Shown in pieces: positions 26,868 to 45,074 of a stretch of 64,000 bases of DNA; positions within the stretch are counted from its first letter, which is position 1; each line of letters begins with the position of its first letter. The position numbers were made by a program, and so were the translations under genes. The notes beneath the pieces are model-generated. The model saw only the letters and a list, made by a program, of their open reading frames with translations. It did no database searches and was not told the origin of the DNA. This stretch comes from Castellaniella sp. MT123 (GTDB lineage Bacteria > Pseudomonadota > Gammaproteobacteria > Burkholderiales > Burkholderiaceae_B). The stretch spans positions 3,286,001 to 3,350,000 of the forward strand of contig NZ_CP154879.1 of the NCBI RefSeq assembly GCF_039614765.1. The letters are read 5' to 3'.

Positions 26868-26876
26868 GTGCTGACT

Positions 26877-30581: not shown

Positions 30582-30583
30582 CA

Positions 30584-30915: not shown

Positions 30916-31010
30916 AGCTAACAGAGTACGCCAGTGCCTAGCCCGAGAGGGTGAAAATGCCGGTCCTGCTCAGCCGGCCTGGCGCTGGCACCTTTATTGC
31001 ATGGTGATGC

Positions 31011-31610: not shown

Positions 31611-31654
31611 CGTCGTTCAAGTACCCCAAACATACTCCGAAGTACCCGATGCTC

Positions 31655-31691
31655 ACCCCGCCCTCCTATGAGAGGAGCGGGGTAATTTTTT
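31655..31691 (+). terminator. rho-independent terminator
   Basis: Outer stem ACCCCG (31655-31660) with CGGGGT (31678-31683) and inner stem CTCCT (31663-31667) with AGGAG (31673-31677), with a two-base CC bulge, followed by AATTTTTT. Ends the 31011 transcript ahead of the HTH/tape-measure unit. Confidence 0.88.
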
Positions 31692-31760
31692 GGGTCTTGA
31701 CGAGTAAGCATACCCGTAGCGCCAAATATCGTTGTAATTCAATGATTGAGGGTGAATATC

Positions 31761-31952
31761 GTGGATTTGCCGACATTCGGATATACGACCAGTGCGCTGG
31801 CCACGCAGGCCGGCTGCAACGCTGAAAGCATTCGGGCGGCACTTTCTCGGCGTGGAAATTGGGCCGGGATCAAGCCGCGCAAGTTGCCCAATGGCAGGCT
31901 GCTTTGGCCAACGGCGGCGGTTAAGAAATTGCTTGGGGAAGACGCTCGATGA
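31761..31952 (+). CDS. small HTH DNA-binding protein
   Basis: 63 residues from GTG 31761 (GAGG 9 bases upstream; GTG 31752 and TTG 31746 are alternatives). TSALATQAGCNAESIRAALSRRG is a helix-turn-helix, followed by a basic wing (KPRKLPNGRLLWPTAAVKKLL) as in MerR/excisionase-type proteins. Likely a local regulator or excisionase of the element. It precedes the tape-measure gene by 42 bp. Confidence 0.65.
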   Translation: MDLPTFGYTTSALATQAGCNAESIRAALSRRGNWAGIKPRKLPNGRLLWPTAAVKKLLGEDAR

Positions 31953-31994
31953 CTTTCTCAACGATGAAATATCAATGCCTGGAACGAGGCAATC

Positions 31995-34004
31995 ATGGCA
32001 ACTGATCTGACATTTCGCATCTCTGCGATCGACAATGCCTCACGCGTCGCCGAACGGGTACAGCGGTCATTCTCGAATGTGTCGGCGCCCCTGGACAAGA
32101 TGACGGGCAAATTCAGGACGGTGGGCCGAAGCGGTGTTGCAGCAATCTCGCGGGCTGAGGCTGCACTGGGCAAAATCGCCAACACGGCACGCGTGGCATC
32201 GGATCGGATAGCGTCCATCGTGCCGGGCATGACTGCGCTCACGGGTCTTGTGGGCGGCGCGGGGGGTATTGGTGCGTTGGCCGAACGCTGGGGGAATCTG
32301 GGCTTTCATCTGAAGACCACCTCCCGAATGCTGGGTATGTCTGCCCAAGGCTTGCAGGCGTGGCACTTCGCGGCACAGCGTGCCGGCGTCACCGCCCAGC
32401 AGTTTGACCAGAGTGTGATGTCATCGCAGAACACCATCCGGATGGCGGCCTACGGTGGCAACCCGCAGGCCATGATGTTGCTCAACCGCCTGGGTGTGAA
32501 CATCTCACACGGCAAGAACGGCGCGATCGACTACCAGAAGACTCAGGCCGACATCATGACGGCGCTGGGCCGGATACGAGATCCGGTGGGCCAGCGCACG
32601 GCAGCCGAGTCGCTGGGCATGGGCGGCATTCTTCCCATGATCCAGCGCGGCACATACGATCAGGATCGACGCCAAGCTATCGCGGATGGCTACGCACCCA
32701 GTCCTGCAGCAATCCAGCGAGCTGCGCAGTTCCGCGACATCATGTTCGGCTTCAACACCCAGATGTCGGACCTTGGGAACACGATCGGCATCACGCTCAC
32801 GCCTATTCTGGAGCCCATGGTGCGCAACCTCACCACATGGCTCAACAGCCACCGCTTGGCAATCGCGCAGGCTTTCGGTGACGCCGTGAAGAAGTTCTCC
32901 GACTGGATCACGAGCGTGAACTGGGGCGACCTGTGGGATAAGGTCAATAGCATCGTTGACAAGTTCGGTGGCTGGGGGGCGGTGCTGCGCGACATCGTGG
33001 CAATCAAATTCGCGTCTGTCGTGGCAGGCTGGGTCGCGCCCATCGCGGCGCTGGCCGCAAACCTGCTTATTGCCAAAAAAGCCGCCGGAGCGATAAAGGG
33101 GATGGCGGGCGGTGTGGCGGTGGCAGAAGGTGCAGGCGCACCGGGCGGCGGCATGGGTTTACTCGGAAAGATTGGTATAACGTGGCTCGCCTCAGACATT
33201 GCCTTACAGGTTGCCCGCGCCCTTGGGCTGCCAGATACCAACACCGCCAAGGGTAACGAAGACACGGCGCGCGGCAACTGGCTGAAAGCATCGTTCGACC
33301 TTCCGGCCGGGGACTTCCTCTCCGCAGGATTCAAGCGTGTATTCGGAGCCGGGCACCCCATCGGCATACGCAGCAACAACCCGCTCAATATCCTGCGCAA
33401 AGGTCAGGAGCGTACCTACGCAACACCGGAGGCCGGCATATCAGCGGCAGTCTCCAACCTGCGGACAGGGTACAGGGGCCTCACCGTTGCGCAGATTGCC
33501 GACAAGTGGACGGGTGGCGCGAGAACCGGCAACACGCCTGAGCAGATGCGCAACTATATAGGGTTGCTCACTCGCGGTACCGGCTTGGCCGCGGGCGATC
33601 GGCCAGACCTTGATGACCAGAAGATTGTGTCCGGCCTCATAAAGGCGCAGATCCGGGCGGAGAACGGAGAGCAACCGTACACGGATGAGACGATACAGGC
33701 CGGGGTGCGAGCCGGCATAGCGGGAAGCGGTACCGTATCAAACCCTACTGCGACTGCTCGCGCGGCGACTGGTGATACCACGTCGGGTGCGGACCAAGGC
33801 GTCACCCCGGCGACCACGACGAATGATCAGTCGATCCGTCAGATCCAGGCATTGGAGGGCAGCATCGTGGCAACCAAAGAGCTGACCGCCGCGTTGCGTG
33901 ATAAGGGCATCATCTCGGGCCCGCCGCAATCCGGCACTCCGAATTTTGGCATCCCAGGCTTGCCGACCGCCGTGCGCTATCAAATGCTGGGAGCCATGCC
34001 GTGA
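31995..34004 (+). CDS. orphan tail tape-measure protein with peptidoglycan-hydrolase-like C-terminal region
   Basis: 669 residues. Residues 1-240 look like phage tape-measure N-termini (TDLTFRISAIDNASRVAERVQ, then LGMSAQGLQAWHFAAQRAGV and NTIRMAAYGGNPQAMMLLNRLGV). A hydrophobic stretch follows at about 330-385. Residues about 450-575 (IGIRSNNPLNILRKGQE, ATPEAGISAAVSNL, ADKWTG) resemble the NNPGNI-type lysozyme-like module of phage structural proteins. Ends in a Thr/Gly-rich linker and tail. No other tail gene is nearby. The leader CCTGGAACGAGGC recurs before the 35612 gene. It could be a relic, or a protein swapped into a helper's tail. Confidence 0.85.
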   Translation: MATDLTFRISAIDNASRVAERVQRSFSNVSAPLDKMTGKFRTVGRSGVAAISRAEAALGKIANTARVASDRIASIVPGMTALTGLVGGAGGIGALAERWGNLGFHLKTTSRMLGMSAQGLQAWHFAAQRAGVTAQQFDQSVMSSQNTIRMAAYGGNPQAMMLLNRLGVNISHGKNGAIDYQKTQADIMTALGRIRDPVGQRTAAESLGMGGILPMIQRGTYDQDRRQAIADGYAPSPAAIQRAAQFRDIMFGFNTQMSDLGNTIGITLTPILEPMVRNLTTWLNSHRLAIAQAFGDAVKKFSDWITSVNWGDLWDKVNSIVDKFGGWGAVLRDIVAIKFASVVAGWVAPIAALAANLLIAKKAAGAIKGMAGGVAVAEGAGAPGGGMGLLGKIGITWLASDIALQVARALGLPDTNTAKGNEDTARGNWLKASFDLPAGDFLSAGFKRVFGAGHPIGIRSNNPLNILRKGQERTYATPEAGISAAVSNLRTGYRGLTVAQIADKWTGGARTGNTPEQMRNYIGLLTRGTGLAAGDRPDLDDQKIVSGLIKAQIRAENGEQPYTDETIQAGVRAGIAGSGTVSNPTATARAATGDTTSGADQGVTPATTTNDQSIRQIQALEGSIVATKELTAALRDKGIISGPPQSGTPNFGIPGLPTAVRYQMLGAMP

Positions 34005-34075
34005 GGGTGATTGATGGAACGTACCGGGTCGATGCGTGGCCCATCATTGATGTGACTGAGAGGAATCAAGAATGA
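34001..34075 (+). CDS. 24-residue coupled mini-frame after the tape-measure gene
   Basis: GTG 34001 overlaps the tape-measure stop (GTGA), and its TGA overlaps the next ATG (34072). The peptide begins MRVIDGTYRVDAWPI and has no resemblance to a full gene. It may be the truncated N-terminus of the tail gene that once followed the tape measure, or a translational coupling device. Confidence 0.35.
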   Translation: MRVIDGTYRVDAWPIIDVTERNQE

Positions 34076-34536
34076 TGATTACGATGACGCAATACAAGCC
34101 GCAACTCAAACAGAGCGTTACCAAGCCTCGTGTGAAGCTGCAGACGACTGGCGCGGCAACCGTGGGCAAGAAGCCCCGGCTGAAACTCGTGCAGCCGGGG
34201 CACATGTCTACTGGCCGCGAGGCAGGATTCACGACCTTGCTGGGTGAGCAGAGGTCCGCCAGTGCGGCAGCTGGAGCGGCCCGTGCAACTCGCGACAAGG
34301 AGCGGGCCCGCTGCGCCCGGATCGTCAAGCATGGCATTGAAGTGGGGCGGGTGATCCAGGCCGGAATTATGGCATTCGACATGGATATTTCGGCCCGAGC
34401 CGCCATTGATGCGTTGGATGTGGTCTGCATCGACGCGCGCAAACCACTCAGCCTCGGCGCGGGCGGCGACGGGCAGCCGCTCACGGTCGCGCAGCGGATC
34501 ATCATGGCCGGCAAGCACCGCCGTGGCGAAGCCTAA
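34072..34536 (+). CDS. hypothetical basic protein
   Basis: 154 residues, N-terminal half basic and Gln/Thr/Lys-rich without obvious fold. The C-terminal part (RARCARIVKHGIEVGRVIQAGIMAFDMDISARAAIDAL) is amphipathic helix, with faint likeness to scaffold/protease C-termini of phages. GAGAGGAATCAAGA precedes the double ATG. Same transcript as the tape-measure gene. I do not recognise it. Confidence 0.65.
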   Translation: MMITMTQYKPQLKQSVTKPRVKLQTTGAATVGKKPRLKLVQPGHMSTGREAGFTTLLGEQRSASAAAGAARATRDKERARCARIVKHGIEVGRVIQAGIMAFDMDISARAAIDALDVVCIDARKPLSLGAGGDGQPLTVAQRIIMAGKHRRGEA

Positions 34537-34573
34537 TCCAGTCCCTATTCGATAACCTGCGGAGAAAAACAGC

Positions 34574-35230
34574 ATGAGCAAGACCAAGAGCCGCCTCCAG
34601 ATTGCCCGCGATCGTGTCGCCGACATCGAGGCAAAGATTGAACGTTGCGACGAGAAGATTGCCAGTGTGACTAGCGCTACGGCGGAACTCGATGACCTTC
34701 TGAAAGAGCGTGATGAAATCATCGCACGCGCATTCATTGATGGGTCATCGCCAGACACGTCTGATTGTGATCAACGCATCGCGGCCGTGAAGAAGTCAAA
34801 CGCTGAGGTACTGGCTCAGGCACAGATTGCGCAGAACGCCCGTGCGATCCTGGATACGCAGCTCGCTGAGGCCAACGGTGAGTTTCACGCTGCTGAAGAG
34901 GAAAGGAATATCGCTTACTGGAAGTTATTGTCGGAGGAGCGTGGCCGCGCCTGTTCCGAATACAACGCTGCGCTCAATACCATGCGGGAGTGCCTGAATC
35001 GCATGGACATTGTGAGTGGCCTTTCAGGTCTCTACAAGGTTCCTAAGAGTGTCTCAGCATTGGCGCGAATACCAGGAAGTGAAAACATAAAGCGAGTCCT
35101 CGATCAGTACCTGTGTGATTCGGATCTTCACCGTGTTTCGTTTGATCGTGGATATGTGGATGATGAAACGAAGAAGCATTGGTCTGAAGTGCATGCGGAC
35201 GTCGTCCAGCGCCTCGGCCTTGATGGCTGA
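34574..35230 (+). CDS. coiled-coil hypothetical protein
   Basis: 218 residues; residues about 1-130 form an acidic long coiled coil (RVADIEAKIERCDEKIASV, LAEANGEFHAAEEERNIAYWKLL). The C-terminal 80 residues look globular (LYKVPKSVSALARIPGSENI). GGAG lies 9 bases before the ATG. Base composition is lower in GC than the flanking core genes. No family recognised. Confidence 0.65.
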   Translation: MSKTKSRLQIARDRVADIEAKIERCDEKIASVTSATAELDDLLKERDEIIARAFIDGSSPDTSDCDQRIAAVKKSNAEVLAQAQIAQNARAILDTQLAEANGEFHAAEEERNIAYWKLLSEERGRACSEYNAALNTMRECLNRMDIVSGLSGLYKVPKSVSALARIPGSENIKRVLDQYLCDSDLHRVSFDRGYVDDETKKHWSEVHADVVQRLGLDG

Positions 35231-35611
35231 TGCGTTGGTGGTGGCCGCCTTGGGCAGTGCTGGGCCGCTGACCATCCGGCCCCCGGGGTCAAGGGTCCCG
35301 TTTTGGTTAAAAAGCCATGCGGGCATTGCGCGCCGCGTTTTTTGACCAGCTACACATCCTCGGATTTGGGTAACAGGTAACACGCATTGGCGTGGTTGGA
35401 AGGGTGCTTCTTGCCCGCATTTCAAATGCGAGTGACAGTGCGCGCGAGCGGTGGCATTGGTCAGCGCGGATCCTCGTGCTGAGCCTCGCACCGGAATGCA
35501 CGATAATTAGACTTTGCCAGCGTCTAGGCTGATCCCCGAAAAGCCGGATACGTTCACCGGCGTGACGCTGGCTCCTATTTCCCGAACGTAGCGACCTGGA
35601 ACGAGGCGCGC
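35231..35611. other. 381-bp non-coding segment with the first 32-bp repeat
   Basis: No supported gene. The 32-bp sequence at 35319-35350, starting GCGGGCATTGCG and ending TTTTTTGACCAGC, is identical to 43093-43124. It contains GCGG...CCGC followed by T6 and could be a weak terminator for the 34574 transcript. The rest has no clear promoter. The leader CCTGGAACGAGGC (35595-35607) before the next ATG repeats the one at 31978-31990. Confidence 0.6.
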
Positions 35612-36688
35612 ATGAAACTTTCAGAGTTGGACATTGCCGCGGCTGCGGGATGTCTGCAGCAGTGGAAACACGTCAAATCGTCGGGCCGCTATCGCCTCGG
35701 GATGGCTGCTCACATCATTGCTGCCGCCGTCGATTCGCCGTACACAGAATCTCGCATCAATGCATTGATGGAGTCGGCGCTTTCGGGGGAGTTGGCTGTT
35801 TATCTTCCTGACGAACCCTCACAACGCTATAGACATGACCCGAATATTCCCGGCGCAGAGCTTCGACGCGTCACGATGGAGGCCAAACCGGAAGACCTCA
35901 ATGCGTGGATTCGCAGCCACGAGCCCGGCAACAAGTTCAGGTTTGAAAGGCCACCTGCTGAGGATGAATCTGATCCGCTGTGGAAGCGCGACCTCGCGCT
36001 GTGGAGAACGTTAAACCATGTACAGGCGGCATGTGTACTTATGGGGCTTGACCCGTACGATAGATCCAGTTACCTCAAGTCGGAACGAATGCGTGACACG
36101 GTGCTGAAAGCCATCGAGGATGGCGAGATCGAGTTTGAGCACAGCGGCATGGAGCGTGGAGATGTGATTCTCGCAAAGTCGCTCGCGGCCTGGTGCGACA
36201 GGAATGGTATCCCGTGGCCGCTGCCTTGGAACTTCGAGGAGACGCAGGAGGTCACCGAGGCGGAACTGCGGCATGAGAATAATAGTCTGCGGCGGAGCCT
36301 GACGGCAGCACAGGAAAAGGTCGAGCGTCTGGAGTCTGAAGTATCCGGTCTGAACTCCAGGATTTCCAGCGACAACGGCTATGTCGATAAATACGAGGCC
36401 AAAATACTCCGCCTGGAATCTGAGCTTGCCCAGGCCAAGATCAGTCATCCGAACGGCGATGCCACGTTCTCGACCGATCACAAACTGCTGAAGCAAATCG
36501 GTGCACTGGCCCTGCTGTTGTCGGAAAAATCGAGCAGGTACAAAAGCGGCGACAAGCCGAACGGCAGCCAGATTGCAGCCGGCGTGGATGACATAGTGAA
36601 GGCCATGCCAGACGCGAACGCACGCGGTCTTGGAGATTCCAGCATTCGCGCCAGTATCAGCGAGGGGCTGAAACTGTTGGCGAGTTGA
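35612..36688 (+). CDS. satellite protein with RYR-type N-terminal domain and coiled coil
   Basis: 358 residues. N-terminal domain (about 28-115) is homologous to that of the 31011 protein. The middle part (about 125-215: LALWRTLNHVQAACVLMGLDP, LAAWCDRNGIPWPLPW) looks like a second helical domain. Residues about 220-285 form a coiled coil (LRRSLTAAQEKVERLESEV), and the C-terminal 70 residues (LLKQIGALALLLSE ... GLGDSSIRASISEGL) form a conserved-looking helical domain. It immediately precedes the alpA operator region. Perhaps a regulatory or helper-sensing protein; that is inference. Confidence 0.7.
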   Translation: MKLSELDIAAAAGCLQQWKHVKSSGRYRLGMAAHIIAAAVDSPYTESRINALMESALSGELAVYLPDEPSQRYRHDPNIPGAELRRVTMEAKPEDLNAWIRSHEPGNKFRFERPPAEDESDPLWKRDLALWRTLNHVQAACVLMGLDPYDRSSYLKSERMRDTVLKAIEDGEIEFEHSGMERGDVILAKSLAAWCDRNGIPWPLPWNFEETQEVTEAELRHENNSLRRSLTAAQEKVERLESEVSGLNSRISSDNGYVDKYEAKILRLESELAQAKISHPNGDATFSTDHKLLKQIGALALLLSEKSSRYKSGDKPNGSQIAAGVDDIVKAMPDANARGLGDSSIRASISEGLKLLAS

Positions 36689-36690
36689 GT

Positions 36691-36735
36691 TTGCCAGTGG
36701 CAAAAACTTTTTGCCAAAACGTGCCACCTGGCAAG
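36691..36735 (+). promoter_or_regulatory. TTGCCA/TGGCAA operator cluster upstream of alpA
   Basis: Three sites lie in 45 bp: palindrome TTGCCAGTGGCAA (36691-36703), a half site TTGCCA (36711-36716) and palindrome TGCCA-CC-TGGCA (36722-36733). They begin 2 bp after the stop of the 35612 gene and end 57 bp before the alpA ATG, so they are well placed to control the alpA-rha-primase transcript. The binding protein is unknown. Confidence 0.7.
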
Positions 36736-36792
36736 AGGCGGTGCCCGTAATCAGTAGCCTATGTTCATGTTCAATTCCCATCGAGGGACAAC

Positions 36793-37074
36793 ATGACAAA
36801 GCAAGCTACACAAGCCGACACCCGGCGCATCACGCAGGCGCAAGCACGCGCCGCATATTCGGCCACCAGTATTGACGATGGCGACCGCCTCATCACAGAC
36901 CGCGAAGTGTCCCGCCTCTTGGGCGCTTCGCGTTCGTGGCCGTGGAAGCTGGTCCGTGATGGCCGGTTTCCGCAACCGATTCGACTCTCTGCACGTTGTA
37001 CGCGCTGGCGTCTGTCAGACGTGCGTGCCTATATGGCCGACCCCCAAGGCTGGGTCGCCAGCATGGGGGCCTGA
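36793..37074 (+). CDS. AlpA family transcriptional regulator
   Basis: 93 residues. Residues 33-90 (RLITDREVSRLLGASRSWPWKLV, FPQPIRLSARCTRWRLSDVRAYM) match the MerR-like AlpA HTH. An N-terminal 30-residue tail precedes it. In P4 and in Gram-negative PICIs, AlpA-type proteins activate the satellite's integration or replication genes; here it is first in the long plus-strand operon running to 42985. Expressed from the TTGCCA-controlled region. Confidence 0.9.
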   Translation: MTKQATQADTRRITQAQARAAYSATSIDDGDRLITDREVSRLLGASRSWPWKLVRDGRFPQPIRLSARCTRWRLSDVRAYMADPQGWVASMGA

Positions 37075-37079
37075 CCATC

Positions 37080-37760
37080 ATGCAGACGACCATGAAAATG
37101 GGCCGCGACTCCGGCAAGAGCGCGACCCCGACGACCGGGAAAGATTCTATCACCCTCTCGGGCACTGCGGCCGAACCACGCATCGATTCCCGCCAGCTCG
37201 CGCAGTACTTGGGTAATCAGCATGAAAGCGTCGTGAAGTTGCTGACCGCCTATGCGGATGACTTCCAGGAACTTGGGGTTTTCAGATTTCAAATCGGGAA
37301 ACCTGCCAGCGCTGCCGGCGGACGCCCCGAACGCTATGCCTTGCTGAACGAGGACCAGGCCTATCTGCTGCTGACCTACAGCCGCAACACCAAGCGCGTA
37401 CGTGAACTGAAGGTGCTCCTTGTCATGGCGTTTCGTGAGGCCCGCCAGCGCGTCGATTTGCACAGCGCCGAATACCTACCCACCTACCACGACCTGCACG
37501 ACGAGATCGCCCGGCTCGCCCGCAATTCCGGCAATGCGCGGTTCGTGCACCTGAACGTGAACCGCGCCATCAATCAGACGGTGGGGGTCGAATCCGGAAG
37601 CCGCAAGTACCTGAGCGTAGCGCGTCAGTCCATCTTGGTGGTGGCGCAGTCTATCGCGGCCCAAGCGATGGCCGGAGCGCACGGCCACCACGAAGGCTAC
37701 CAACGGGCCAAGGCCGCATTGCAGCGGCTGGAAACTGCCCTGATCGGGGGCGCTGCGTGA
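37080..37760 (+). CDS. Rha family phage regulatory protein
   Basis: 226 residues. The Rha domain (about 30-115: PRIDSRQLAQYLGNQHESVVKLL, RPERYALLNEDQAYLLLTYSRNT, VRELKVLLVMAFREAR) is well conserved. The C-terminal part may bind DNA. Rha proteins interfere with phage growth in some hosts (phi80, P22). ATG 37080 is 6 bp after alpA stops. Its stop overlaps the next ATG (TGATG). Confidence 0.88.
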   Translation: MQTTMKMGRDSGKSATPTTGKDSITLSGTAAEPRIDSRQLAQYLGNQHESVVKLLTAYADDFQELGVFRFQIGKPASAAGGRPERYALLNEDQAYLLLTYSRNTKRVRELKVLLVMAFREARQRVDLHSAEYLPTYHDLHDEIARLARNSGNARFVHLNVNRAINQTVGVESGSRKYLSVARQSILVVAQSIAAQAMAGAHGHHEGYQRAKAALQRLETALIGGAA

Positions 37761-37999
37761 TGCCGACCGACAACCGCTCCACCAGTGCCGACAGCCAGCG
37801 CGCGCGGATCATGCAGGCGCTCACCACCGGCCCCAAGACCAGCTATGAACTGCGGCGCATCGGCTGCTACCAGTGCCCCACCCGCGTCCTGGAGTTACGG
37901 CGCATGGGCCACGACATCCGCACCCAGCGCGTGAGCATCTGGGATGCGGACGGCTACCGTCATTGCGGCGTGGCGCTGTATTCGCTGGGGGGCGTGTGA
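37760..37999 (+). CDS. winged-helix protein (HTH_39-like)
   Basis: 79 residues. RARIMQALTTGPKTSYELRRIGCYQCPTRVLELRR-type pattern of a winged HTH, followed by a wing (GHDIRTQRVSIWDADGYRH). Such proteins are common in phage early operons. Overlaps the rha stop (TGATG), and its own stop overlaps the next ATG at 37999. Confidence 0.75.
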   Translation: MPTDNRSTSADSQRARIMQALTTGPKTSYELRRIGCYQCPTRVLELRRMGHDIRTQRVSIWDADGYRHCGVALYSLGGV

Positions 38000-38226
38000 T
38001 GGACAACGCCATGACCAAACACGAGGGATTCATTCTCGACACTGTGCTGCCCGTCATCATGGGGCAGGCCCGTGCCTTGAACTGCGACCCCCTGGAAGCG
38101 GCATTGGCTGTATTCATGTCGCTGGGTACGCTGCTGCTGACCCGTGGCTATACCCCTGATTCCCTATTGCAGGCGATCCGGGCCAGCGCAGCAACCACCC
38201 ATGACGCACCGGGGGGCCTGCAATGA
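37999..38226 (+). CDS. hypothetical small protein
   Basis: 75 residues, mainly helical and acidic-to-neutral (LDTVLPVIMGQARALNCDPLEAALAVFMSLG within it). No family recognised. Coupled by a TGATG overlap to the upstream gene and ending just before the C4-like RNA region. Confidence 0.65.
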   Translation: MDNAMTKHEGFILDTVLPVIMGQARALNCDPLEAALAVFMSLGTLLLTRGYTPDSLLQAIRASAATTHDAPGGLQ

Positions 38227-38321
38227 TGCGACTTGCACAACCCTGCGTGGTGCCTCAGAATATCCCTGTGCCGAAAACAACCGGCACCGGGTTTAGCAGC
38301 CTGTTTTGCTTACGGCGAGTG

Positions 38322-38469
38322 AACCGCCGCCCCATGGCGGTTTTTCATTTGCAAGCCATGTCACCTATGGGCGGCAGTGGCGGGGGTGCCTTCGGGCACG
38401 CTGGTACTCGTAAGCGCCAGTCTGCTAACCCCGCCATTTGCTGCCCACCATCGTTTAGCAGCGATGTGG
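38322..38469 (+). ncRNA. C4-like antisense RNA region
   Basis: AACCGCC/GGCGGTT (38322-38342) followed by TTT is an upstream hairpin. The core runs 38369-38446: GGGCGGCAG pairs with TTGCTGCCC and GGCGGGG with CCCCGCC. These enclose a GTGCC-TTCG-GGCAC hairpin (38386-38399) and a CTGG...CCAG hairpin (38401-38420). A further hairpin CATCG...CGATG (38449-38465) follows. This three-way layout matches the C4 antisense RNA of P1/P7/P4-type elements, which controls the gene downstream. GTTTAGCAGC occurs both before (38291-38300) and after the core (38453-38462). Continuous reading frames over it (from 38223) are probably not translated. Confidence 0.65.
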
Positions 38470-38498
38470 GCGGTTCAACCGCTTACGGAGGCCATGAC

Positions 38499-38888
38499 AT
38501 GGCTGCATTACCCATCCCTGCGCGTTCTGCGCAAACCTTCCCCCAAACCGAAAAAGCGGCCCGCCGTGCTGCGCGGCAATGGTTCGCTGGCGCTACCCGG
38601 CCATCCCTGGCTTGCTGGCGCGATGATCGCCGCAGCGCCCATTGTTCCGGCTTGCCTGCGGTCCATGGCCGTGCGGATGTCTTCAATCAGGCATTTGCCC
38701 AGGAACTGGCCACCATCATTGCTGACGGCTGCACGGGATCGATTCCGACAGCTGCCGCAGTAGCCGCTGGTGAAGTCCTGAATGCTTCGGGTGCGGATGT
38801 TTCGGTGACCCCTGGCCGCTTTGCCTGGGAAGACGGCAGCGAACAGCGCGGCTACCTGATCATCTTCAAAGGGGGCCGTCATGAATAG
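38499..38888 (+). CDS. hypothetical protein downstream of C4-like RNA
   Basis: 129 residues from ATG 38499, with GGAGG (38487-38491) 7 bases upstream. A second ATG at 38494 opens another frame (to 38763) but with only 2 bases of spacing. The C-terminal part (FNQAFAQELATIIADGCTG, GEVLNASGADVSVTPG, QRGYLIIFKGG) looks protein-like; the N-terminal part is basic and low complexity. Position matches ash/icd-type genes controlled by C4 RNA. Overlaps the next gene by 8 bp. Confidence 0.6.
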   Translation: MAALPIPARSAQTFPQTEKAARRAARQWFAGATRPSLACWRDDRRSAHCSGLPAVHGRADVFNQAFAQELATIIADGCTGSIPTAAAVAAGEVLNASGADVSVTPGRFAWEDGSEQRGYLIIFKGGRHE

Positions 38889-39120
38889 CCAGATCCTCAA
38901 TGCCCGTACCCCCGGCACCACGCTATGGCGTTTTCACGGTTACCGCAAATCAGCAGCTGGCTTTGTTTGCGAAGTGATCACCCCCGACGGCACGCACATT
39001 CATGAGCCCCTGGTGCTGTTCGTTCGGAACGTCTCGGGTCGAGACGAATGGGATAACGATCCTGAGGACATTGCGGCCATGCTGGAGCTGGCTCGTGTGA
39101 GGGGGATGCGTCATGAGTAA
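38881..39120 (+). CDS. hypothetical small protein
   Basis: 79 residues, beta-rich N-terminal half (TTLWRFHGYRKSAAGFVCEVI) and acidic helical C-terminus (DPEDIAAMLELARVRG). Tightly overlapped on both sides. No family recognised. Confidence 0.65.
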   Translation: MNSQILNARTPGTTLWRFHGYRKSAAGFVCEVITPDGTHIHEPLVLFVRNVSGRDEWDNDPEDIAAMLELARVRGMRHE

Positions 39121-39325
39121 GCAACTTGAACAGGTCCGCCTCTTCGCCAATCGGATCGAGGAACAACGGGAAGGCGTCATGTCCATGCTGGCCGGGGTCA
39201 GTGCGCTTCTCGGTTCGGGCGATACGTTCAATGCCGTGAATCTGCTGGTGCAGGCCATGGATTACCTGGGTGACACGGCAAGCCTACAGGCGTTGCGCAA
39301 AGCGGCGGGGGGCGGCAATGACTGA
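39113..39325 (+). CDS. hypothetical small helical protein
   Basis: 70 residues, almost all amphipathic helix (LEQVRLFANRIEEQREGVM, FNAVNLLVQAMDYLG). Starts inside the preceding gene and overlaps the primase start by 8 bp. Unknown. Confidence 0.65.
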   Translation: MSKQLEQVRLFANRIEEQREGVMSMLAGVSALLGSGDTFNAVNLLVQAMDYLGDTASLQALRKAAGGGND

Positions 39326-40265
39326 TTACCGATCTCTGCAATCCGCCCTGGCCGCCGGCGGCCTGATCCCCGGTGACATCGAGGCGGGGAGTCTGCGCCG
39401 ATGCCGGGTTGAGGGCGACCGATCAGGGAAAAAGTCGGGCGCGTATCGGCTGTTCGATGATGAGGTGGCGACCTGCATTTGGTGGAACTGGAAAACCTCA
39501 GCCACGGGCGTATGGGTGTCATCCGAGCGCCCCCTATCGGATGCCGACCGCAGCCGGCACCGGCAATTGATTGAGCAGGCCAAGCGGGAGCGCCAACAAG
39601 CGCAGGCTACCGAGTGGAAGCGCAACCGGGAGTACCTAACCCGGCTGTGGGGCCGCGCCCAGCCCCTGACGGCTTCATGTGTGGGGGGTGTCTACCTGGA
39701 TCGGCGCGGGCTGGATGTGCCGGTCACCGACGCATTGCGGTTCGTGCCGAAGCTCGACTATTGGCATGACGCGGTGCTGCTGGGCGCCTTCCCGGCCATG
39801 CTGGCGGCCGTCACCGACCAGGCCGGGGTGCTAGTGAATGTGCATCGTACCTACCTGTCATCGGATGGCCACAAGGCTGACGTGCCGGCCGTGAAGAAAC
39901 TGTGTAAGTCGGCGGGGGTGATGGCGGGCGCGTCCATCAAGTTGGGCGCGCCGGTCCTGCGACCCGATGGCAGGCCCGGTCTTGGCATTGCGGAGGGCAT
40001 TGAGACGGCGATCGCTGCCAGCATCCTCTTCGGAGTGCCCACCTGGTCCTGCATCTCGGCGCACGGCTTGGAGACGTTCACCCCGCCGCCAGAGGTTCGC
40101 AACTTATATGTGTTCGCGGACCACGATGAAAGCGGCGTTGGCCAGCACGCAGCGCGGAAAGTTGCGCCGCGGCTGGCGGCTCAGGGCCTCACGGTGCGCA
40201 TTCTCATGCCGGACGCGGTGGGGGATTGGAGCGATGAATTGCAGGTTCGGAGGGCGATTGTATGA
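39318..40265 (+). CDS. Toprim-domain primase-like protein
   Basis: 315 residues. Toprim motifs are clear in the C-terminal half: LGIAEGIETAIAASILFG (catalytic Glu), then LYVFADHDESGVGQHAA (D-x-D-x-SG) and a final SDELQ acidic patch. The N-terminal half (VATCIWWNWKTSATGVW; LTRLWGRAQPLT; YLDRRGLDVP) matches the DUF7146-type region found before Toprim in satellite primases; no CHC2 zinc motif is visible. ATGA overlap couples it to the DUF3987 gene. Together they likely prime and unwind at the origin-like repeats. Confidence 0.88.
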   Translation: MTDYRSLQSALAAGGLIPGDIEAGSLRRCRVEGDRSGKKSGAYRLFDDEVATCIWWNWKTSATGVWVSSERPLSDADRSRHRQLIEQAKRERQQAQATEWKRNREYLTRLWGRAQPLTASCVGGVYLDRRGLDVPVTDALRFVPKLDYWHDAVLLGAFPAMLAAVTDQAGVLVNVHRTYLSSDGHKADVPAVKKLCKSAGVMAGASIKLGAPVLRPDGRPGLGIAEGIETAIAASILFGVPTWSCISAHGLETFTPPPEVRNLYVFADHDESGVGQHAARKVAPRLAAQGLTVRILMPDAVGDWSDELQVRRAIV

Positions 40266-41818
40266 GCGAAGCATTGCTGGTTGATCCCGCTAGCGTAAGC
40301 GGCGGTTTGCTGGATGCTGATTCTGCGCAGTCCACTATGGACGTGACGCCGCAGCCGCTGCCGAGCTTGCCAGCTGTGCCTGATTTCCCATTGGAGTTGC
40401 TGCCGAACGATTTGATGGCGTGGATCGGTGATGCTGCCGACCGCGCGAAATTTCGTCCTGACTTTGCAGCGGTGGCATGCATGTCGGCATTGGGAAGTGT
40501 GATTGGGCGCAAATTAGGTATTCGCCTCAAGCGGCGCGATGACTGGACGGAGTACGCAAATGTCTGGGGGGCGCTGATCGGCCCACCTTCCGCGCTCAAG
40601 TCCCCCGCCATGCGTGCGGCGCTCAAACCATTCAAGGCATTGCAGGCGGCTGCGGACGCTGACCACGCGCAGGCTTTGAAGGACTACACGGTAGAGGCCG
40701 AGACCTTCAAGTTGCGCAAAAAGGCGCGGAAAGATCGTGCCTCAAAGGCACTTAGATCTGATCCTGATGCCGACGTCGACTTGGCCGACTTGGAGCCGCC
40801 AGAAGAGCCGGTTGCCCGTACATACTGGACCTCAAATGTCAACGAGGCGAGCTTGGGCGTGCTGCTGGAAAAAAAACCGAATGGCCTCTTGATCGAGCGC
40901 GACGAAGTCACGTCGTTACTCGCGGGCTTGGAAGATGATCAGCGCGCCGACCTGCGCGGCATGTTGCTCTCGGGCTGGTCTGGCAATGAAGGCTACCGAT
41001 TTGACCGCATAGGGCGCGACGTCACCTACTTGCCGAAATTCGCCGTGTCACTGGTGGGCGGCATCCAGCCCGGGCCGCTCGAGCGGTATGTGCGCAGCGC
41101 CTTTTCTGGCGAGCGCGCCGACGGACTCTTGCAGCGATTCCAGCTCCTCACCTGGCCGGACGCCGAGGATTTCAAGTACGAAGACCGCTACCCTGACGGT
41201 GACGCCCGCAAAGCTGCGGCCGCGCTTTTTGAGCGTGCCGACACGTTCGACCCGGAGGCGATTGGTAGTCACGACAACTATGGCGATGAACCGCCGTTCG
41301 TGCGGCTCTCTGACGGTGCCCAGGCCCTTTTCGTCGAATGGTACACGGTCTTCATGAAGGAGCGCCGCCAGGTTGAAGGTGAGGGAGTTGAAAGTGGTCC
41401 CTTATCCGCACACTTTGGAAAGTACCCTGGTCTCCTGGGCAAGCTCGCACTCATCCTGCACGTTGCCGACGACGGCGCGGCGCGCATGGTCTCTGAGATC
41501 ACAATGACAAAAGCCCTTGCGTGGTTGCAGTACCTGGAGCCTCACGCGCGGCGGGTGTACCACGTCGTGGATGTTCCGGAGACCGGGGCTGCAAGACTGC
41601 TGCTCGCTCGCTTGCAGAGTGGCGCACTGCCTACAACCTTCAAGTCGTGGCAAATCTCGCGCAAGTGCTGGCATGGCTTAGGCGATGCAGCCGTGGTCAA
41701 ACGTGCCTGTCGGTTGCTTCATGAGTACGGATGGCTCATCGAGCTTGAGGCGGGCGGCGCCACTGGCGGGCGGCCTGCCGATCCGGTGTATGCGGTTTCA
41801 CCGGCCGTAAGGGTGTAG
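40262..41818 (+). CDS. DUF3987 helicase-like replication protein
   Basis: 518 residues. The DUF3987 core spans about residues 40-470: ELLPNDLMAWIGDAADRAKFRPDF, the degenerate Walker A GPPSALKSPAMRAAL, a Lys-rich coiled region, then ERDEVTSLLAGLE and LLSGWSGNEGYRFDRIGRD. Family members accompany phage/plasmid primases and are thought to act as replicative helicases, though the P-loop is atypical. The C-terminal part (LASCHEYGWLIELE-like wing) may bind DNA. Follows the Toprim gene with a 4-bp overlap. Confidence 0.85.
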   Translation: MSEALLVDPASVSGGLLDADSAQSTMDVTPQPLPSLPAVPDFPLELLPNDLMAWIGDAADRAKFRPDFAAVACMSALGSVIGRKLGIRLKRRDDWTEYANVWGALIGPPSALKSPAMRAALKPFKALQAAADADHAQALKDYTVEAETFKLRKKARKDRASKALRSDPDADVDLADLEPPEEPVARTYWTSNVNEASLGVLLEKKPNGLLIERDEVTSLLAGLEDDQRADLRGMLLSGWSGNEGYRFDRIGRDVTYLPKFAVSLVGGIQPGPLERYVRSAFSGERADGLLQRFQLLTWPDAEDFKYEDRYPDGDARKAAAALFERADTFDPEAIGSHDNYGDEPPFVRLSDGAQALFVEWYTVFMKERRQVEGEGVESGPLSAHFGKYPGLLGKLALILHVADDGAARMVSEITMTKALAWLQYLEPHARRVYHVVDVPETGAARLLLARLQSGALPTTFKSWQISRKCWHGLGDAAVVKRACRLLHEYGWLIELEAGGATGGRPADPVYAVSPAVRV

Positions 41819-41821
41819 TCG

Positions 41822-42361
41822 ATGAAAGACTATCTCGCGCTGCTGGGTACCCTGAATCAGAAAAGGTACGCGCTAAATGGCGACTGCGTAAACCGTGCAA
41901 AGGACTTTACCCAGTTTGCGCAGTTGCCACCTAGCACAGAAAAAAGTGATTTCCAGGGGCCAGACGGTAAGTCAGCAATCCCGGCTGCATCTCCAGACGA
42001 GGCCTTTACCCAGTTTGCGCAGTTGCCCCTTAGTGCAAAAAAAGTGAATGTGCACGCCGTCGTGGACCTTGCGAAACCAGGCACCGGGTCGGTTGCGACG
42101 ACTGCGGTGGCCACGGTGAATGACTCGTCGCTACGCACCCAGGTACGCACGGATATGGCGGTCGGCAGGTCAGCTATCCCGCGATCTGATCTAGCTCGCG
42201 CCATCAAGTGGCGCCCCGTGGCGGACGCCTATTATCGGCACCATTTCGGATGTCTCCAATGCATTGCGGCCGGCCAAAACGAGCATCTGGTCCGCTGCTT
42301 CACCGGCATGCTCCTGTGGGATGCGCTACAGAGCAGCCATTCGCAAGACACAGGAGGGTAA
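41822..42361 (+). CDS. repeat-containing protein with C-terminal Cys/His motif; gene carries origin-type boxes
   Basis: 179 residues. Two copies of FTQFAQLP (about residues 31 and 62) are encoded exactly where 24-bp boxes lie on the complementary strand. Residues 1-110 look low complexity. The C-terminus (WRPVADAYYRHHFGCLQCIAAGQ ... RCFTGMLLWDAL) has a CxxC/Cys zinc-like motif common in phage early proteins. It begins 3 bp after the DUF3987 stop. The coding sequence therefore doubles as a cis-acting site. Confidence 0.7.
   Translation: MKDYLALLGTLNQKRYALNGDCVNRAKDFTQFAQLPPSTEKSDFQGPDGKSAIPAASPDEAFTQFAQLPLSAKKVNVHAVVDLAKPGTGSVATTAVATVNDSSLRTQVRTDMAVGRSAIPRSDLARAIKWRPVADAYYRHHFGCLQCIAAGQNEHLVRCFTGMLLWDALQSSHSQDTGG
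41882..42024 (-). repeat. inverted 24-bp origin-type boxes
   Basis: On the minus strand 41902-41925 reads AACTGCGCA, AACTGGGTA, AAGTCC, identical to 28366-28389. 42001-42024 is the same with one change (AAGGCC). A diverged copy on the plus strand (41882-41905) overlaps the first, making an inverted pair centred near 41903. The exact pair is 13.5 kb apart and in opposite orientation. Confidence 0.7.
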
Positions 42362-42366
42362 GCGCG

Positions 42367-42702
42367 ATGATTGACGCATTGATACAGGGCAAGCTCTACG
42401 GGACACCCAAGACTGGCATCGGGAAGAATAGCAACCCCTATACCACGGCGCTGCTGCGCGTGGCGACGGCGGCCGGGGACATGCTCATGTGCAGCGTCAT
42501 CTGCTTTGACGAGGCCGCGCAGTGCGTCCTGCAGGCGCTTGGCGATGGTGACTCAGTGGCGGTGACCGGCACCCTAACCCCGAAGGTCTACCAGGCGAAG
42601 GATGGTACATCGAGGCCAGCCCTGGATCTAGTGGCGCAGGCGGTAATGACGCCGTACCAGGTCACGCGCAAGCGGCAGGCGGTGGAGCAGATCCATGAAT
42701 GA
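42367..42702 (+). CDS. single-stranded DNA-binding (OB-fold) protein
   Basis: 111 residues. The pattern MIDALIQGKLYGTPKTGIGKNSNPY, then MLMCSVICFDEAAQCVLQALGDGDSVAVTGTL, matches small phage SSB-like OB folds (G-x-V-x-G-T). No acidic C-terminal tail of the canonical SSB. ATG 42367 is 5 bp after the previous stop. Belongs to the replication module. Confidence 0.82.
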   Translation: MIDALIQGKLYGTPKTGIGKNSNPYTTALLRVATAAGDMLMCSVICFDEAAQCVLQALGDGDSVAVTGTLTPKVYQAKDGTSRPALDLVAQAVMTPYQVTRKRQAVEQIHE

Positions 42703-42985
42703 TTTGATGATCGCCTGTCCCACCGGCAAGCAACGAAGCGACGGTGACCCCGCTATGCGGGTATTGCTGCTGGCGATGCGCTGGGCACGGGCACGGGATG
42801 CGCGTCTGGTGGCGCAGAAAGCAAAGCGGGATGCAGAGGGGCGCGGCATTCTCTATGCCATGCGATCCGGTACCGATCAGACACTGACGGCAACACGGCG
42901 TGAAGAAGCACGGGCCAAGCGGCTGCTACTGGCTGCGTGCAAGACGATGATGGCGAGCCAACAGGTGGACGTAATCGATGTGTGA
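42695..42985 (+). CDS. hypothetical basic protein
   Basis: 96 residues, helical and Arg/Lys/Ala-rich (MRVLLLAMRWARARDARLVAQ). It ends the replication operon and is followed by the cos-like region. Overlaps the SSB gene by 8 bp. Unknown function; DNA-binding is plausible from charge. Confidence 0.65.
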   Translation: MNDLMIACPTGKQRSDGDPAMRVLLLAMRWARARDARLVAQKAKRDAEGRGILYAMRSGTDQTLTATRREEARAKRLLLAACKTMMASQQVDVIDV

Positions 42986-43169
42986 GAAAACACGCTACAA
43001 GCGTGGGCGAGCGGTGACCGTCAGGCGAGGGCGTCTCGGGGAATCCTGGGGTTATCCCTGTGCGAGGGTCCTTCCCAGGGGGGGTCTAGCACGCGGGCAT
43101 TGCGCGCCGCGTTTTTTGACCAGCGATAGGGATTGAAAATTGGTTTCAGGTTTCAAGTGAGGTTTCAGC
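42986..43169 (+). promoter_or_regulatory. cos-like region upstream of the small terminase gene
   Basis: No gene in these 184 bp. It holds a hairpin CACGCT-ACA-AGCGTG (42991-43005), a GC-rich tract with several G-runs (43025-43085), the second copy of the 32-bp repeat (43093-43124) and three GGTTTCA motifs (43142, 43149, 43161). Three more copies lie inside the gene (43355, and inverted at 43376 and 43388). In cos phages the terminase binding sites lie beside terS, so these may be TerS sites (cosB-like); the nick site is not assigned. Confidence 0.5.
43093..43124 (+). repeat. second copy of 32-bp exact direct repeat
   Basis: Identical over 32 bp to 35319-35350, same orientation, 7.77 kb apart. 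Both copies follow the last gene of a plus-strand cluster. It includes GCGG...CCGC then T6. Confidence 0.9.
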
Positions 43170-43778
43170 ATGGCATTGGTCTCGAAGTCGGAATACGCGC
43201 GGATGCATGGCGTTTCGCATACGGCGGTGAACAAGTGGCAACGGGCCGGATGGCTTGTGATGCAAGGCTCTCGCGTGGACGTGGACGCATCAGATGCGAA
43301 GCTCGTGCGATACCGCAATAGCGCCGATGGTCGGGCCTCGAAGTCACGCGGAAAGGTTTCAAAAAGGCCGAAACCTGAAACCGAAGTTGAAACCGTCGTG
43401 CCCGTGGTCGAGCTTCTCCCTGGTGAGTCGGTGGACGCCGCCGCTGAGCGTCTGACCGCCGGTACGACGATAGACCTGCAGATACCGGTCGAGGAAGCGA
43501 AGCGCATCAAAGAGGTGTACCTCGCGCTCTTGAACCGTTTGGACTATGAGCAGAAGTCTGGTGCACTTATCGAGCTGGCGGCCGCTGAACAAGTCGTCTT
43601 TGGCGCGTTCCGTGCACAGCGCGATTCGTGGCTCAACTGGCCGGTTCGGTTCGGGCCGATGGTGGCTGCTGACCTCGGTATCGAGGAGAGCGACCGCGTG
43701 ACTGCCATACTCACGGATTACGTCCATCGGCAGCTTGAACAGCTTAGCAGTCCAGACGTGGACTTCACAGCGTCGTAG
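43170..43778 (+). CDS. terS: small terminase subunit (Nu1-like)
   Basis: 202 residues. N-terminal HTH (SKSEYARMHGVSHTAVNKWQ) is a Nu1-type DNA-binding head. A charged linker with Lys/Glu follows. The C-terminal half (EAKRIKEVYLALLNRLDYEQ, AAAEQVVFGAFRAQRDSWLNWPV, LTDYVHRQLEQL) matches terminase small-subunit oligomerisation regions. GAGG 7 bases before ATG 43170. No large terminase follows, as in satellites that redirect a helper's TerL to their own DNA. Alternative: an unrelated phage HTH protein; the C-terminal match makes this less likely. Confidence 0.82.
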   Translation: MALVSKSEYARMHGVSHTAVNKWQRAGWLVMQGSRVDVDASDAKLVRYRNSADGRASKSRGKVSKRPKPETEVETVVPVVELLPGESVDAAAERLTAGTTIDLQIPVEEAKRIKEVYLALLNRLDYEQKSGALIELAAAEQVVFGAFRAQRDSWLNWPVRFGPMVAADLGIEESDRVTAILTDYVHRQLEQLSSPDVDFTAS

Positions 43779-43860
43779 GTTCACGATCTGAAGGCCTCGG
43801 TACGCAGCTTGCGGTACGCACGGAAAAGGCCATCACGGAGCCTGTGGCGCACCGCCGGTA

Positions 43861-43889
43861 TTGGGCGGCGACGCGCATATACTTACAAT
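43861..43889 (+). promoter_or_regulatory. candidate sigma-70 promoter
   Basis: TTGGGC (43861-43866), 17-bp spacer, TACAAT (43884-43889), 27 bp before the ATG at 43917. It would transcribe the small membrane-protein gene separately from terS. Confidence 0.5.
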
Positions 43890-43916
43890 TGCGGCAAGTG
43901 CCGCGAAAGGCGCGTC

Positions 43917-44342
43917 ATGAGCAATGTGTTGAGGTTTCCTGCCCGGCATCCGGTGATGACACTCGTCGTCGTGGCGTTGCTCGGGTTCTATGGCCTGTCG
44001 CCAGCGCCCAGCCTACGCGATGTCGCGTGCTATGCAATCGGCTGTCCGCTGAGTGCGGAATCCGCACAGGCGAATGTCCTGCCGCTTCTGCGGCAGAAGT
44101 TCGCAACGGCTCCGCTGGATCGATTCGGCTTCACTGTCGAGGACACGCGCCTCATCCACAAGCAGGGCAATGAGTACACCGGAGTCGCAAACGTGAAGAC
44201 GCGTGACGGCTCGGTTGAGCAGGTCCCAATCGACGTCATGTACGACGGGAAGACCGTCATGTACACGATCTCGGCAGGCGGCGTGTCGGCCCTTGTGGGA
44301 AGTGTGTTCGCACAGACTTTCAAGGATGCTCTTGGCCAGTAA
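43917..44342 (+). CDS. small secreted or membrane-anchored protein
   Basis: 141 residues. An N-terminal hydrophobic helix (VMTLVVVALLGFYGLSPAPS, about residues 13-32) anchors or exports a domain with two Cys (VACYAIGCP) and a beta-rich end (EYTGVANVKTRDGSVEQVPIDV). GAAAGG lies 6 bases before ATG 43917; longer in-frame starts lack support. Unknown role; surface modification or lysogenic conversion is possible. Confidence 0.7.
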   Translation: MSNVLRFPARHPVMTLVVVALLGFYGLSPAPSLRDVACYAIGCPLSAESAQANVLPLLRQKFATAPLDRFGFTVEDTRLIHKQGNEYTGVANVKTRDGSVEQVPIDVMYDGKTVMYTISAGGVSALVGSVFAQTFKDALGQ

Positions 44343-44496
44343 GAGGCAGTGCAAGAGCAGGGTGGACAATTTTGATACGGTAGCGCGACAAGTCGTCTGC
44401 AACGCTCGGAGGGCAGCGCGGGTCGTGGGACTTGCTGTTGCGGCTGGTGCCGGGTTCGTCCATCAACGGTGGATGAACAATAAACCCATCCCTTGA
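44326..44496 (+). CDS. possible small basic membrane peptide
   Basis: 56 codons from ATG 44326, overlapping the previous gene. A weak hydrophobic stretch (VVGLAVAAGAGFVH) follows a basic segment. GTG 44362 is an alternative start. No homology recognised. Confidence 0.3.
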   Translation: MLLASKRQCKSRVDNFDTVARQVVCNARRAARVVGLAVAAGAGFVHQRWMNNKPIP

Positions 44497-44997
44497 TTCG
44501 CCGCTATACCGACTCTCTCAAACAGTTCATGGGGTGCGATTTGCAATCCACCCCTTTAAGACGGCCGGCGACGGCGCGATCGATAGCGCACCCCCCCTCA
44601 CGCACTACTAGATTAAGCGCTGGCGGGGGCCCCTCACGCCTAACTGTGGGTTTCGGAGTGTGCCGCGATGGTGCTGGTCTCCCCGATTGTGTGCATTGCG
44701 CCATGAGCAGTGCGCAATGCGTTTTGCGCAAAGCATCAGTGGTGACGGCTGTTCGTAGTGAAGGAAGAGCCTGGCAACCACCTGGTGCTCGCAATACGAC
44801 GATTCGCGTCGGAGCATCGCCGTGCAGCTTGGGAGCTGCTGAAAGGTGAAAGGCCCCGATTATGGGGTAGAGCCGCAGTGGCTGGTCAGAGGATGCCGAA
44901 AGAGGGCTAGCGTTTGCCGATTGTCCTACCTGTGTCCTACGGAAGGTCAGACCTACGGGAGATCAAAAACCGGAAATTCGTAGTCCCTTGATTCTAT
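44497..44997. other. right end of the element, non-coding, with right arm-type site
   Basis: I see no gene in these 500 bp. Paired GTCCTAC motifs at 44923-44929 and 44934-44940 (block 44921-44943) repeat the left arm site with two differences, 43 bp inside attR. Confidence 0.7.
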
Positions 44998-45046
44998 TGG
45001 TCGGGGCGACATGATTCGAACATGCGACCCTCTGCTCCCAAAGCAG
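44986..45046 (-). repeat. attR (within tRNA-Pro)
   Basis: Matches attL at 26657-26717 except at 44994, 44996 and 45026. It supplies the 3' half of the intact tRNA-Pro, so integration restores the tRNA. Confidence 0.9.
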
Positions 45047-45074
45047 ATGCGCTACCAGGCTGCGCTACGCCCCG
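44998..45074 (-). tRNA. tRNA-Pro(TGG)
   Basis: 77 nt including encoded CCA (44998-45000). Acceptor CGGGGCG pairs with CGCCCCG; the anticodon arm CTGCT-TTGGGAG-AGCAG region gives anticodon TGG; T-arm has GTTCGAATC. Integration target of the satellite. Confidence 0.95.

Follow-up and report, generated by a model that had tools for sequence, protein, structure and literature searches.

The GGTTTCA repeats clustered around the start of terS very probably (a probability of roughly 0.9) form the TerS-recognition part, or cosB, of a lambda/N15-type cos site (cos1) that belongs to a phage satellite integrated within the window, meaning the whole 64-kb stretch of DNA analysed here. The preliminary description had proposed TerS-binding, cosB-like sites at this location; comparison with related sequences now supports that reading through a cohesive end determined at the same place in a homologous phage (BZS1), a fixed distance between repeats and cohesive end in 91 of 91 typed loci, a repeat type that tracks the DNA-binding domain of TerS, and a DNA-level constraint on the copies within the gene. 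A second cos site with the same predicted end and a different repeat lies elsewhere in the satellite.

Composition of the repeat array

An exact-match scan recovered the six GGTTTCA copies first reported (direct at 43142, 43149, 43161, and 43355; inverted at 43376 and 43388), their span of 253 bp (43142-43394), and the two 12-bp spacings (43149 to 43161 and 43376 to 43388). Absent from that first account were the 7-bp spacing at which the copies at 43142 and 43149 abut, and CGAAACC at 43369-43375, a copy with one mismatch that abuts the copy at 43376; both clusters therefore contain a 7-bp tandem pair. The components of cos1 are ordered as a cosQ-like GGGTCC, the cohesive end, a spacer, the R3 tandem pair, another copy at the ribosome-binding site, and an inverted cluster within terS (bp positions are counted from the cohesive end):

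43066-43071 (+): cosQ-like GGGTCC of cos1, 31 nt before the predicted nick
43097-43108 (+): cosN of cos1, predicted 12-nt cohesive end GCATTGCGCGCC, identical to the BZS1 5' end
43142-43155 (+): R3-equivalent of cos1, tandem GGTTTCA pair, bp 46-59
43161-43167 (+): third GGTTTCA, bp 65-71, overlapping the end of the Shine-Dalgarno-like GAGG of terS (43159-43162)
43170-43778 (+): terS, 202-aa small terminase subunit (phrog_57, E=1.5e-27), with a predicted N-terminal winged HTH, a flexible linker, and a C-terminal domain
43355-43361 (+): in-gene GGTTTCA in the terS linker, exact copy, bp 259-265
43369-43394 (-): inverted cluster in the terS linker, CGAAACC at 43369 (one mismatch), TGAAACC at 43376, and TGAAACC at 43388, bp 273-298

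Six copies of GGTTTCA were reached in none of 20,000 dinucleotide shuffles of 42986-43400 (mean 0.07, largest 3); when any 7-mer was allowed, six copies appeared in 3 of 2,000 shuffles of the same interval. The 7-mers CAGCTGC and CAGCCAG likewise reach six per 253 bp somewhere in the window, and 4 of 100 whole-window shuffles contained at least 11 copies of GGTTTCA, the window itself holding 11 exact copies, 6 of them in the array (43142-43394). Copy count alone is therefore not decisive; the decisive evidence for the array is its conservation in relatives.

Predicted cohesive end and layout of cos1

The position of the cos1 end at 43097-43108 is predicted by homology to that of Serratia phage vB_SspM_BZS1. 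According to the available text of the BZS1 report, its 12-nt 5' cohesive end, GCATTGCGCGCC, was predicted with PhageTerm, and the prediction was compared with the product of a PCR spanning the joined ends (PMC7556043). The BZS1 record opens with the GCATTGCGCGCC bases, and its repeats begin at bp 48. BZS1 and Citrobacter phage phiNP share with cos1 an identical 12-nt end sequence, a homologous TerS, and the layout of the array; unlike the satellite, both are complete phages with terL and capsid genes, and their repeats are GGTAACA. A 34-nt stretch of cos1 (43091-43124) is identical in a Castellaniella phage (L003). In lambda, a sequence check places GGGTCC, a word that we take to be lambda cosQ, 30 nt before the nick; a literature search found no paper on cosQ as GGGTCC.

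The arrangement resembles that of lambda-like cos sites, and of N15 in particular, in its cosQ, its predicted 12-nt 5' cohesive end, and an R3 at about bp 48-65. In the accessible portions of the published accounts, R3 occupies bp 50-65 in lambda and about bp 48-60 in N15, whose TerS gene also contains an inverted rR2 (bp 249-260) (PMC9026076, PMC4669245). The tandem pair of cos1 occupies the corresponding R3 position (bp 46-59), and further R sites, as in lambda/N15-type cos, follow at bp 65-71 and as in-gene copies to bp 298; the inverted site within terS (bp 273-298 here) matches the simple N15 cosB of R3 plus inverted rR2. As in lambda and N15, terS lies directly downstream and its product is a predicted winged-HTH protein; those same accounts, as far as their available text goes, also tie repeat specificity to the N-terminal domain of TerS (PMC9026076, PMC4669245). 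Unlike in lambda and N15, the R units here are words of 7-8 bp that, for three of the five repeat types, stand as tandem pairs at most loci, and unlike N15, cos1 has several in-gene sites rather than one and the cohesive end GCATTGCGCGCC. No match to the IHF consensus WATCAANNNNTTR within one mismatch was found between 42384 and 44486, and a lambda-type bend is therefore not supported; while this differs from lambda, the N15-type cosB likewise has no IHF site in the parts of the reports available (PMC9026076, PMC4669245).

Conservation and geometry among relatives

In nine viral loci (L004-L012) whose TerS is 56-62% identical to that of the satellite, GGTTTCA occurs inside terS in all nine and also before terS in eight, the ninth locus beginning at terS itself; it was not found in that region of the other 18 of the 27 TerS-relative loci. 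Loss of the motif from homologous elements, named earlier as an outcome that would refute the reading, was thus not what was seen: GGTTTCA persists in close relatives, and most of the more distant relatives recovered have a different repeat with the same geometry.

When viral contigs were scanned for the 17-nt cos core, at least 120 stretches matched. Among the matches listed, 113 distinct regions downstream of the core were surveyed, with no prior, for their commonest 7-mer, which was GGTAACA in 39, TGTCCCA in 38, TGTTCGC in 8, GGTTTCA in 5, and TGTCCGC in 2. Other words were commonest in the remaining 21; a few of these are the same repeats in another phase, and many of the 21 regions are chance core matches in host genes. 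TerS accompanies 111 of the 152 core matches among those listed (86 of the 111 being distinct), and the remaining 41 are accounted for by contig ends, chance core matches within host genes, genes that are broken or went unrecognised, and the second cos site of the window. The distinct TerS set, together with BZS1 and five phages that combine GGTTTCA with a variant core, less one locus (L078), makes up the 91 typed loci. In every one of these among the matches listed, the first repeat begins at bp 45-48; the locus counts include many near-copies and omit the broken terS of L074 and L114. Of the 121 distinct upstream regions among the matches listed, 104 have GGGTCC 30-31 nt ahead of the nick, one has it at 16 nt, and 16 lack it.

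This fixed distance bears on an alternative in which the array is mainly a terS operator, with TerS acting as a repressor of terS by binding over the ribosome-binding site or a promoter. The overlap of the site at 43161-43167 with the Shine-Dalgarno-like GAGG favors such a role, as does the presence of GAGGTAACAGATG at the same place in BZS1. In long-leader relatives, however, the first repeat stays at bp 45-48 while terS starts about 190-280 bp from cosN, so that the fixed reference point is cosN and not the start codon. An operator as the main function is accordingly improbable; autoregulation of terS in addition to packaging, as the preliminary description had also suggested, is possible given the position of the third repeat.

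The same loci speak to a further alternative, that the repeats are replication-origin iterons to which the element's own primase and helicase bind and that they lie beside terS by chance. Iteron arrays look similar to arrays of this kind, the satellite does encode a primase and a DUF3987 helicase, and the repeats of long-leader relatives flank an AT-rich stretch. Yet the helicase was found in none of eight phage records with the same repeat (a search with no positive control, in records that are possibly fragments), the copies gather at cos (8 of 10 in a 46.6-kb record, among the matches listed), the distance from cosN is fixed, and the repeat type follows the TerS N-domain. Replication iterons, which we regard as very improbable, were set aside on the clustering of copies at cos, their fixed distance from the cohesive end, and the tracking of the N-domain.

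The pattern of repeats beside cos is not universal. Ten of 268 genomes of the host family bear a TerS; none of the ten has GGTAACA repeats, seven have other typed repeats, and three have none. The distant host-family TerS of G020, G258, and G195 are accompanied by no cos core, no GGGTCC, and no such repeat, and at two loci, L082 and L123, the cos core is accompanied by a different TerS and by none of the repeats. A locus on the minus strand of L078 (8288) carries the same cos core, TTCACAC-like words, and a TerS helix MSRRAFYNW, with no sequence past the gene; TTCACAC is possibly a sixth repeat type. Containing none of the five words, L078 was left out of the geometry and tree counts, and it contributes no counted pair to the codon test described below. 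In a phage within G026 (L199, 19330-19720), GGTTTCA repeats occur with a divergent cosN and a leader that has extra copies before terS.

Repeat type and the TerS DNA-binding domain

One of the five repeat types could be assigned to 85 of 86 distinct TerS among the matches listed, the exception being L078. The recognition-helix sequences differ by type: VSHTAV with GGTTTCA, VSRKT with GGTAACA, V[DN]RKT with TGTCCCA, CDEKQV with TGTCCGCA, and CSDTLV with TGTTCGCA. BZS1 and L097, whose TerS are 73% identical in the C-domain and 46% in the N-domain, have different repeats; BZS1 and L015, 76% identical in the N-domain and 32% in the C-domain, have the same repeat. These pairs indicate that TerS domains have been swapped. 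On an N-domain tree of 79 distinct TerS, repeat type needs 4 changes, the minimum for five types, as against 8 on the C-domain tree of the same 79 proteins. A single GGTAACA clade on the C-domain tree is rejected (p-AU 5.7e-7); a single clade is not rejected for the smaller TGTCCGCA (p 0.756) and GGTTTCA (p 0.839) groups, the tests covering these three types and being unfinished for TGTCCCA and TGTTCGCA.

On these comparisons, repeat type follows the DNA-binding domain of TerS and not its C-terminal domain, and the sequence evidence as a whole strongly supports the cosB-like reading. Upstream repeats, HTH, and linker repeats sit next to one another, and their joint inheritance could mimic some of the covariation. 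The relationship would amount to a recognition code, spanning at least five TerS classes, in which the word beside one conserved cohesive end predicts the TerS class able to start packaging.

An AlphaFold model of the satellite TerS has a mean pLDDT of 70.5 and a pTM of 0.28, with residues 1-40 at a pLDDT of about 82-85. Its best structural matches are phage TerS DNA-binding domains, all with Z under 7 (7lw0, Z 6.9; 6hn7_B, a TerS, Z 6.8; 7lxs, Z 6.7; 7lwr, Z 6.6), and it matches gpNu1 (1j9i) at Z 5.5; Z scores up to 6.9 lie below the level that excludes a common arrangement. Foldseek searches with the model gave E 0.1 at best, and the sequence profile is weak (E 0.29-0.95 for RppC and TerS chains).

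Constraint on the in-gene repeats

The repeats within terS fall in the linker of the protein, which raises the alternative that they are by-products of a repetitive peptide rather than DNA sites. TerS linkers are indeed of low complexity, made of Gly-Asn-x or Glu-Thr repeats, and a codon test of TGTTCGCA-type linkers was not significant (6 of 15, P 0.26). In three other types, however, the codons are nearly fixed: Gly-Asn is spelled GGTAAC in 121 of 122 pairs of GGTAACA-type linkers, against 22% expected; GGTTTCA-type linkers spell Glu-Thr as GAAACC in 20 of 23 pairs and Val-Ser as GTTTCA in 8 of 8; and TGTCCGCA-type linkers spell Ala-Asp as GCGGAC in 7 of 7. The linkers are related, so the P values of these tests overstate the case. 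A single 7-mer, moreover, codes for Val-Ser forwards and for Glu-Thr backwards, and the second cluster of the GGTAACA type sits before terS in some phages and inside it in others; in TGTCCCA-type loci, the second cluster is almost wholly before terS. An origin of the in-gene copies as linker by-products is scarcely credible in the face of these observations, and in the constrained types, the conserved thing looks like a DNA function rather than a peptide sequence.

The satellite and its likely helper

The element is bounded by 64-nt direct repeats that are 94% identical (26654-26717 and 44983-45046, 18,329 bp apart):

26654-45046 (strand not assigned): integrated satellite, 18.3 kb, bounded by the 64-nt direct repeat, which includes the 3' end of tRNA-Pro
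26856-28292: integrase
31995-34004 (+): tape-measure protein (phrog_2276), 57% identical over its first 368 aa to the tape measure of a conspecific prophage
34072-34536 (+): 154-aa protein, its C-terminal half matching the C-terminus of a prophage head-region protein (phrog_6382)
39270-41818 (+): replication module, Toprim primase (39270-40265) and DUF3987 helicase (40262-41818)
44998-45074: tRNA-Pro, with the right-hand repeat at its 3' end

AlpA and Rha regulators and an SSB are also encoded. A 44-nt direct repeat (86%) lies at window positions 41901-42043, inside the ORF at 41822-42361. As is characteristic of phage satellites, the element is integrated and encodes an integrase and replication proteins, and no gene for TerL, portal, or capsid was detected in it. 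Ten queries, seven of them BZS1 head proteins and three TerL, found no match in the 64-kb window at E 1e-3, whereas 9 of these 10 queries (all except p09) matched the prophage of the conspecific genome G117, which served as a positive control. No TerL was found within 20 kb of the satellite terS; among the matches listed, 82 of 86 terS loci have a TerL match, and in 3 the contig ends within 125 bp. With no detectable terL in the satellite, TerL must be borrowed.

The tape measure is an unusual possession, since to our knowledge satellites usually have no tail genes; past residue 368, most of its sequence differs from that of the conspecific prophage. In the 154-aa protein, 44 of 89 aligned columns are identical to the prophage protein, which is encoded between protease and head-decoration genes. 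CpmB changes capsid size in SaPIs, and by analogy the 154-aa protein may be a scaffold fragment that alters capsid size. Gram-negative PICIs are defined as having no phage structural genes and an alpA near int; because the element has a tape-measure gene and a head-protein fragment, and its alpA is far from int (8.5 kb), it is not classed here as a PICI.

The helper is likely to be a phage like the prophage of the conspecific genome. Three of 44 ORFs of the G117 prophage (at least 100 aa, overlapping frames included) match the window, namely TerS, the head-region protein, and the tape measure; the C-domains of the two TerS are 63% identical over 109 aa. The Castellaniella phage locus L003, which we infer belongs to the G117 prophage, is of the TGTCCGCA repeat type. 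The satellite and the local phage thus appear to share a cohesive end, the part of TerS expected to hold TerL, and two morphogenesis parts; judged by sequence, the satellite's DNA-binding domain and repeats differ from those of the phage.

These correspondences are consistent with a mechanism in which a dimer of the satellite's own TerS would bind the R3 pair, probably pairing it with the in-gene inverted cluster, while its C-terminal domain would recruit the TerL of a helper phage. The helper TerL would then nick cosN at 43097-43108 and package satellite DNA rightward through terS. As proposed here, a satellite-coded TerS directing the packaging of its own DNA would resemble that of SaPIs with their own TerS, as described in the available text on those islands (PMC6092414); those SaPIs are headful (pac) systems, and the present one is a cos system.

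Only two exact cos cores were identified in the host genome, both in the satellite, and the 40 kb around another partial copy of the gene at 35612 (L205, L206) yielded neither a TerL match nor a core; the genome was therefore not found to hold a resident helper sharing this end. The core is present in 3 of 369 genomes of a class-wide sample and in 9 of 268 genomes of the host family, the satellite's own genome being included in both and some matches being due to chance in the family count. The satellite spacer has no exact match in viral contigs, blastn of 40000-45000 against phage records found nothing, and no relative of gene 35612 was found in viral contigs or in the 267 other genomes of the family. 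No paper joining a satellite, a small terminase, a cos site, and a tape measure emerged from a literature search.

A second cos site

The satellite contains another copy of the cos signature, cos2:

35293-35298 (+): cosQ-like GGGTCC of cos2, 30 nt before the predicted nick
35323-35334 (+): cosN of cos2, with the same predicted cohesive end GCATTGCGCGCC; core copy, 97% over 35 nt
35369-35382 (+): R3-equivalent of cos2, tandem GGTAACA pair, bp 47-60

This pair makes up all of the cos2 repeats, with no further R sites, and tblastn with 92 TerS sequences found no terS match in the following 1.5 kb. Since cos2 has the same end and GGTAACA repeats, the satellite has two cos sites of different predicted TerS specificity. 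Cleavage at cos2 could end packaging irrespective of the repeats there, and a TerS of the GGTAACA class might also start packaging from it. Among the loci seen, many of which end early, cos2 alone combines the full signature and enough downstream sequence with no trace of terS. The orphan region has no exact match in viral contigs, and a literature search apparently turned up no paper linking GGTAACA to terminase specificity.

The two cos sites were probably brought together by a fusion of two satellites. The genes at 31011-31610 and 35612-36688 are paralogous (39% identity over 97 aa), with a third, partial paralogue match elsewhere in the genome (G000:C1:1431103-1431303). A sister satellite, L184 (a 19.4-kb record), has late genes, an integrase, a cos, and a terS with GGTAACG-like in-gene repeats; no TerL match was found in its record, in a search that had no positive control. 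It is from the 31011/35612 paralogues and the gene order of L184 that the window element appears to be such a fusion.

Whether cos2 is a fossil of that fusion, with no present role, is a question on which the evidence is evenly poised. The missing terS and the paralogues and gene order that suggest fusion fit a relic, and precedent is found in the Gram-negative PICI EcCICFT073, where, in the portions of the reports available, deletion of cos2 raised transfer instead of lowering it (PMC6092414) and cos1 alone was essential (PMC6739421). On the other side, cos2 retains an intact GGGTCC, cohesive end, 32-nt stretch of core, and pair of GGTAACA repeats; the EcCICFT073 authors, in the available text, call both of its cos sites functional (PMC6092414), and in lambda-like phages, the end of packaging is described as independent of repeat type in the part of the source at hand (PMC4669245).

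The competing proposal, that both sites work, cos1 (GGTTTCA) for the satellite's own TerS and cos2 (GGTAACA) for the TerS class of helpers, is tentative and on balance unlikely; by analogy, the rise in EcCICFT073 transfer after removal of cos2 may be counted against it. Under this proposal, the satellite could be packaged either by its own TerS with a helper TerL or directly by GGTAACA-type helpers. The calculated cos-to-cos spacings are 7,774 and 10,555 bp round the 18,329-bp circle; with unequal spacings and an ending that does not depend on the repeat, the packaged DNA could, for example, run from cos2 through two complete circles and on to cos1, a length of 44,432 bp that is close to the 44,995 bp of the BZS1 genome.

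The closest parallel to a satellite with two sites is EcCICFT073, with a helper-like cosQ/cosN, a cosB of its own, and two cos sites with different cosB, as given in the accessible text (PMC9026076, PMC6092414, PMC6739421). In the parts available, its authors ask why some islands carry two cos sites (PMC6092414, PMC6739421); a literature search on satellites with two such sites turned up one review. Two working sites here, if real, would offer a concrete answer to that published question of why some islands keep two different cos sites. The Rpp protein of EcCICFT073 acts solely in combination with the TerS of its helper, whereas the satellite described here has a full-length TerS; unlike in EcCICFT073, both repeat types are recognisable. 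What is new in the present element is the second cos, together with two predicted specificities that can each be named and tested.

Two features of the L184 record may be noted in their own right. Its region at 10090-17931 contains a tape measure, a baseplate hub (phrog_177), and an integrase (15936-16952), followed by cos and terS, and two ORFs at 1264-2399 resemble an IS.
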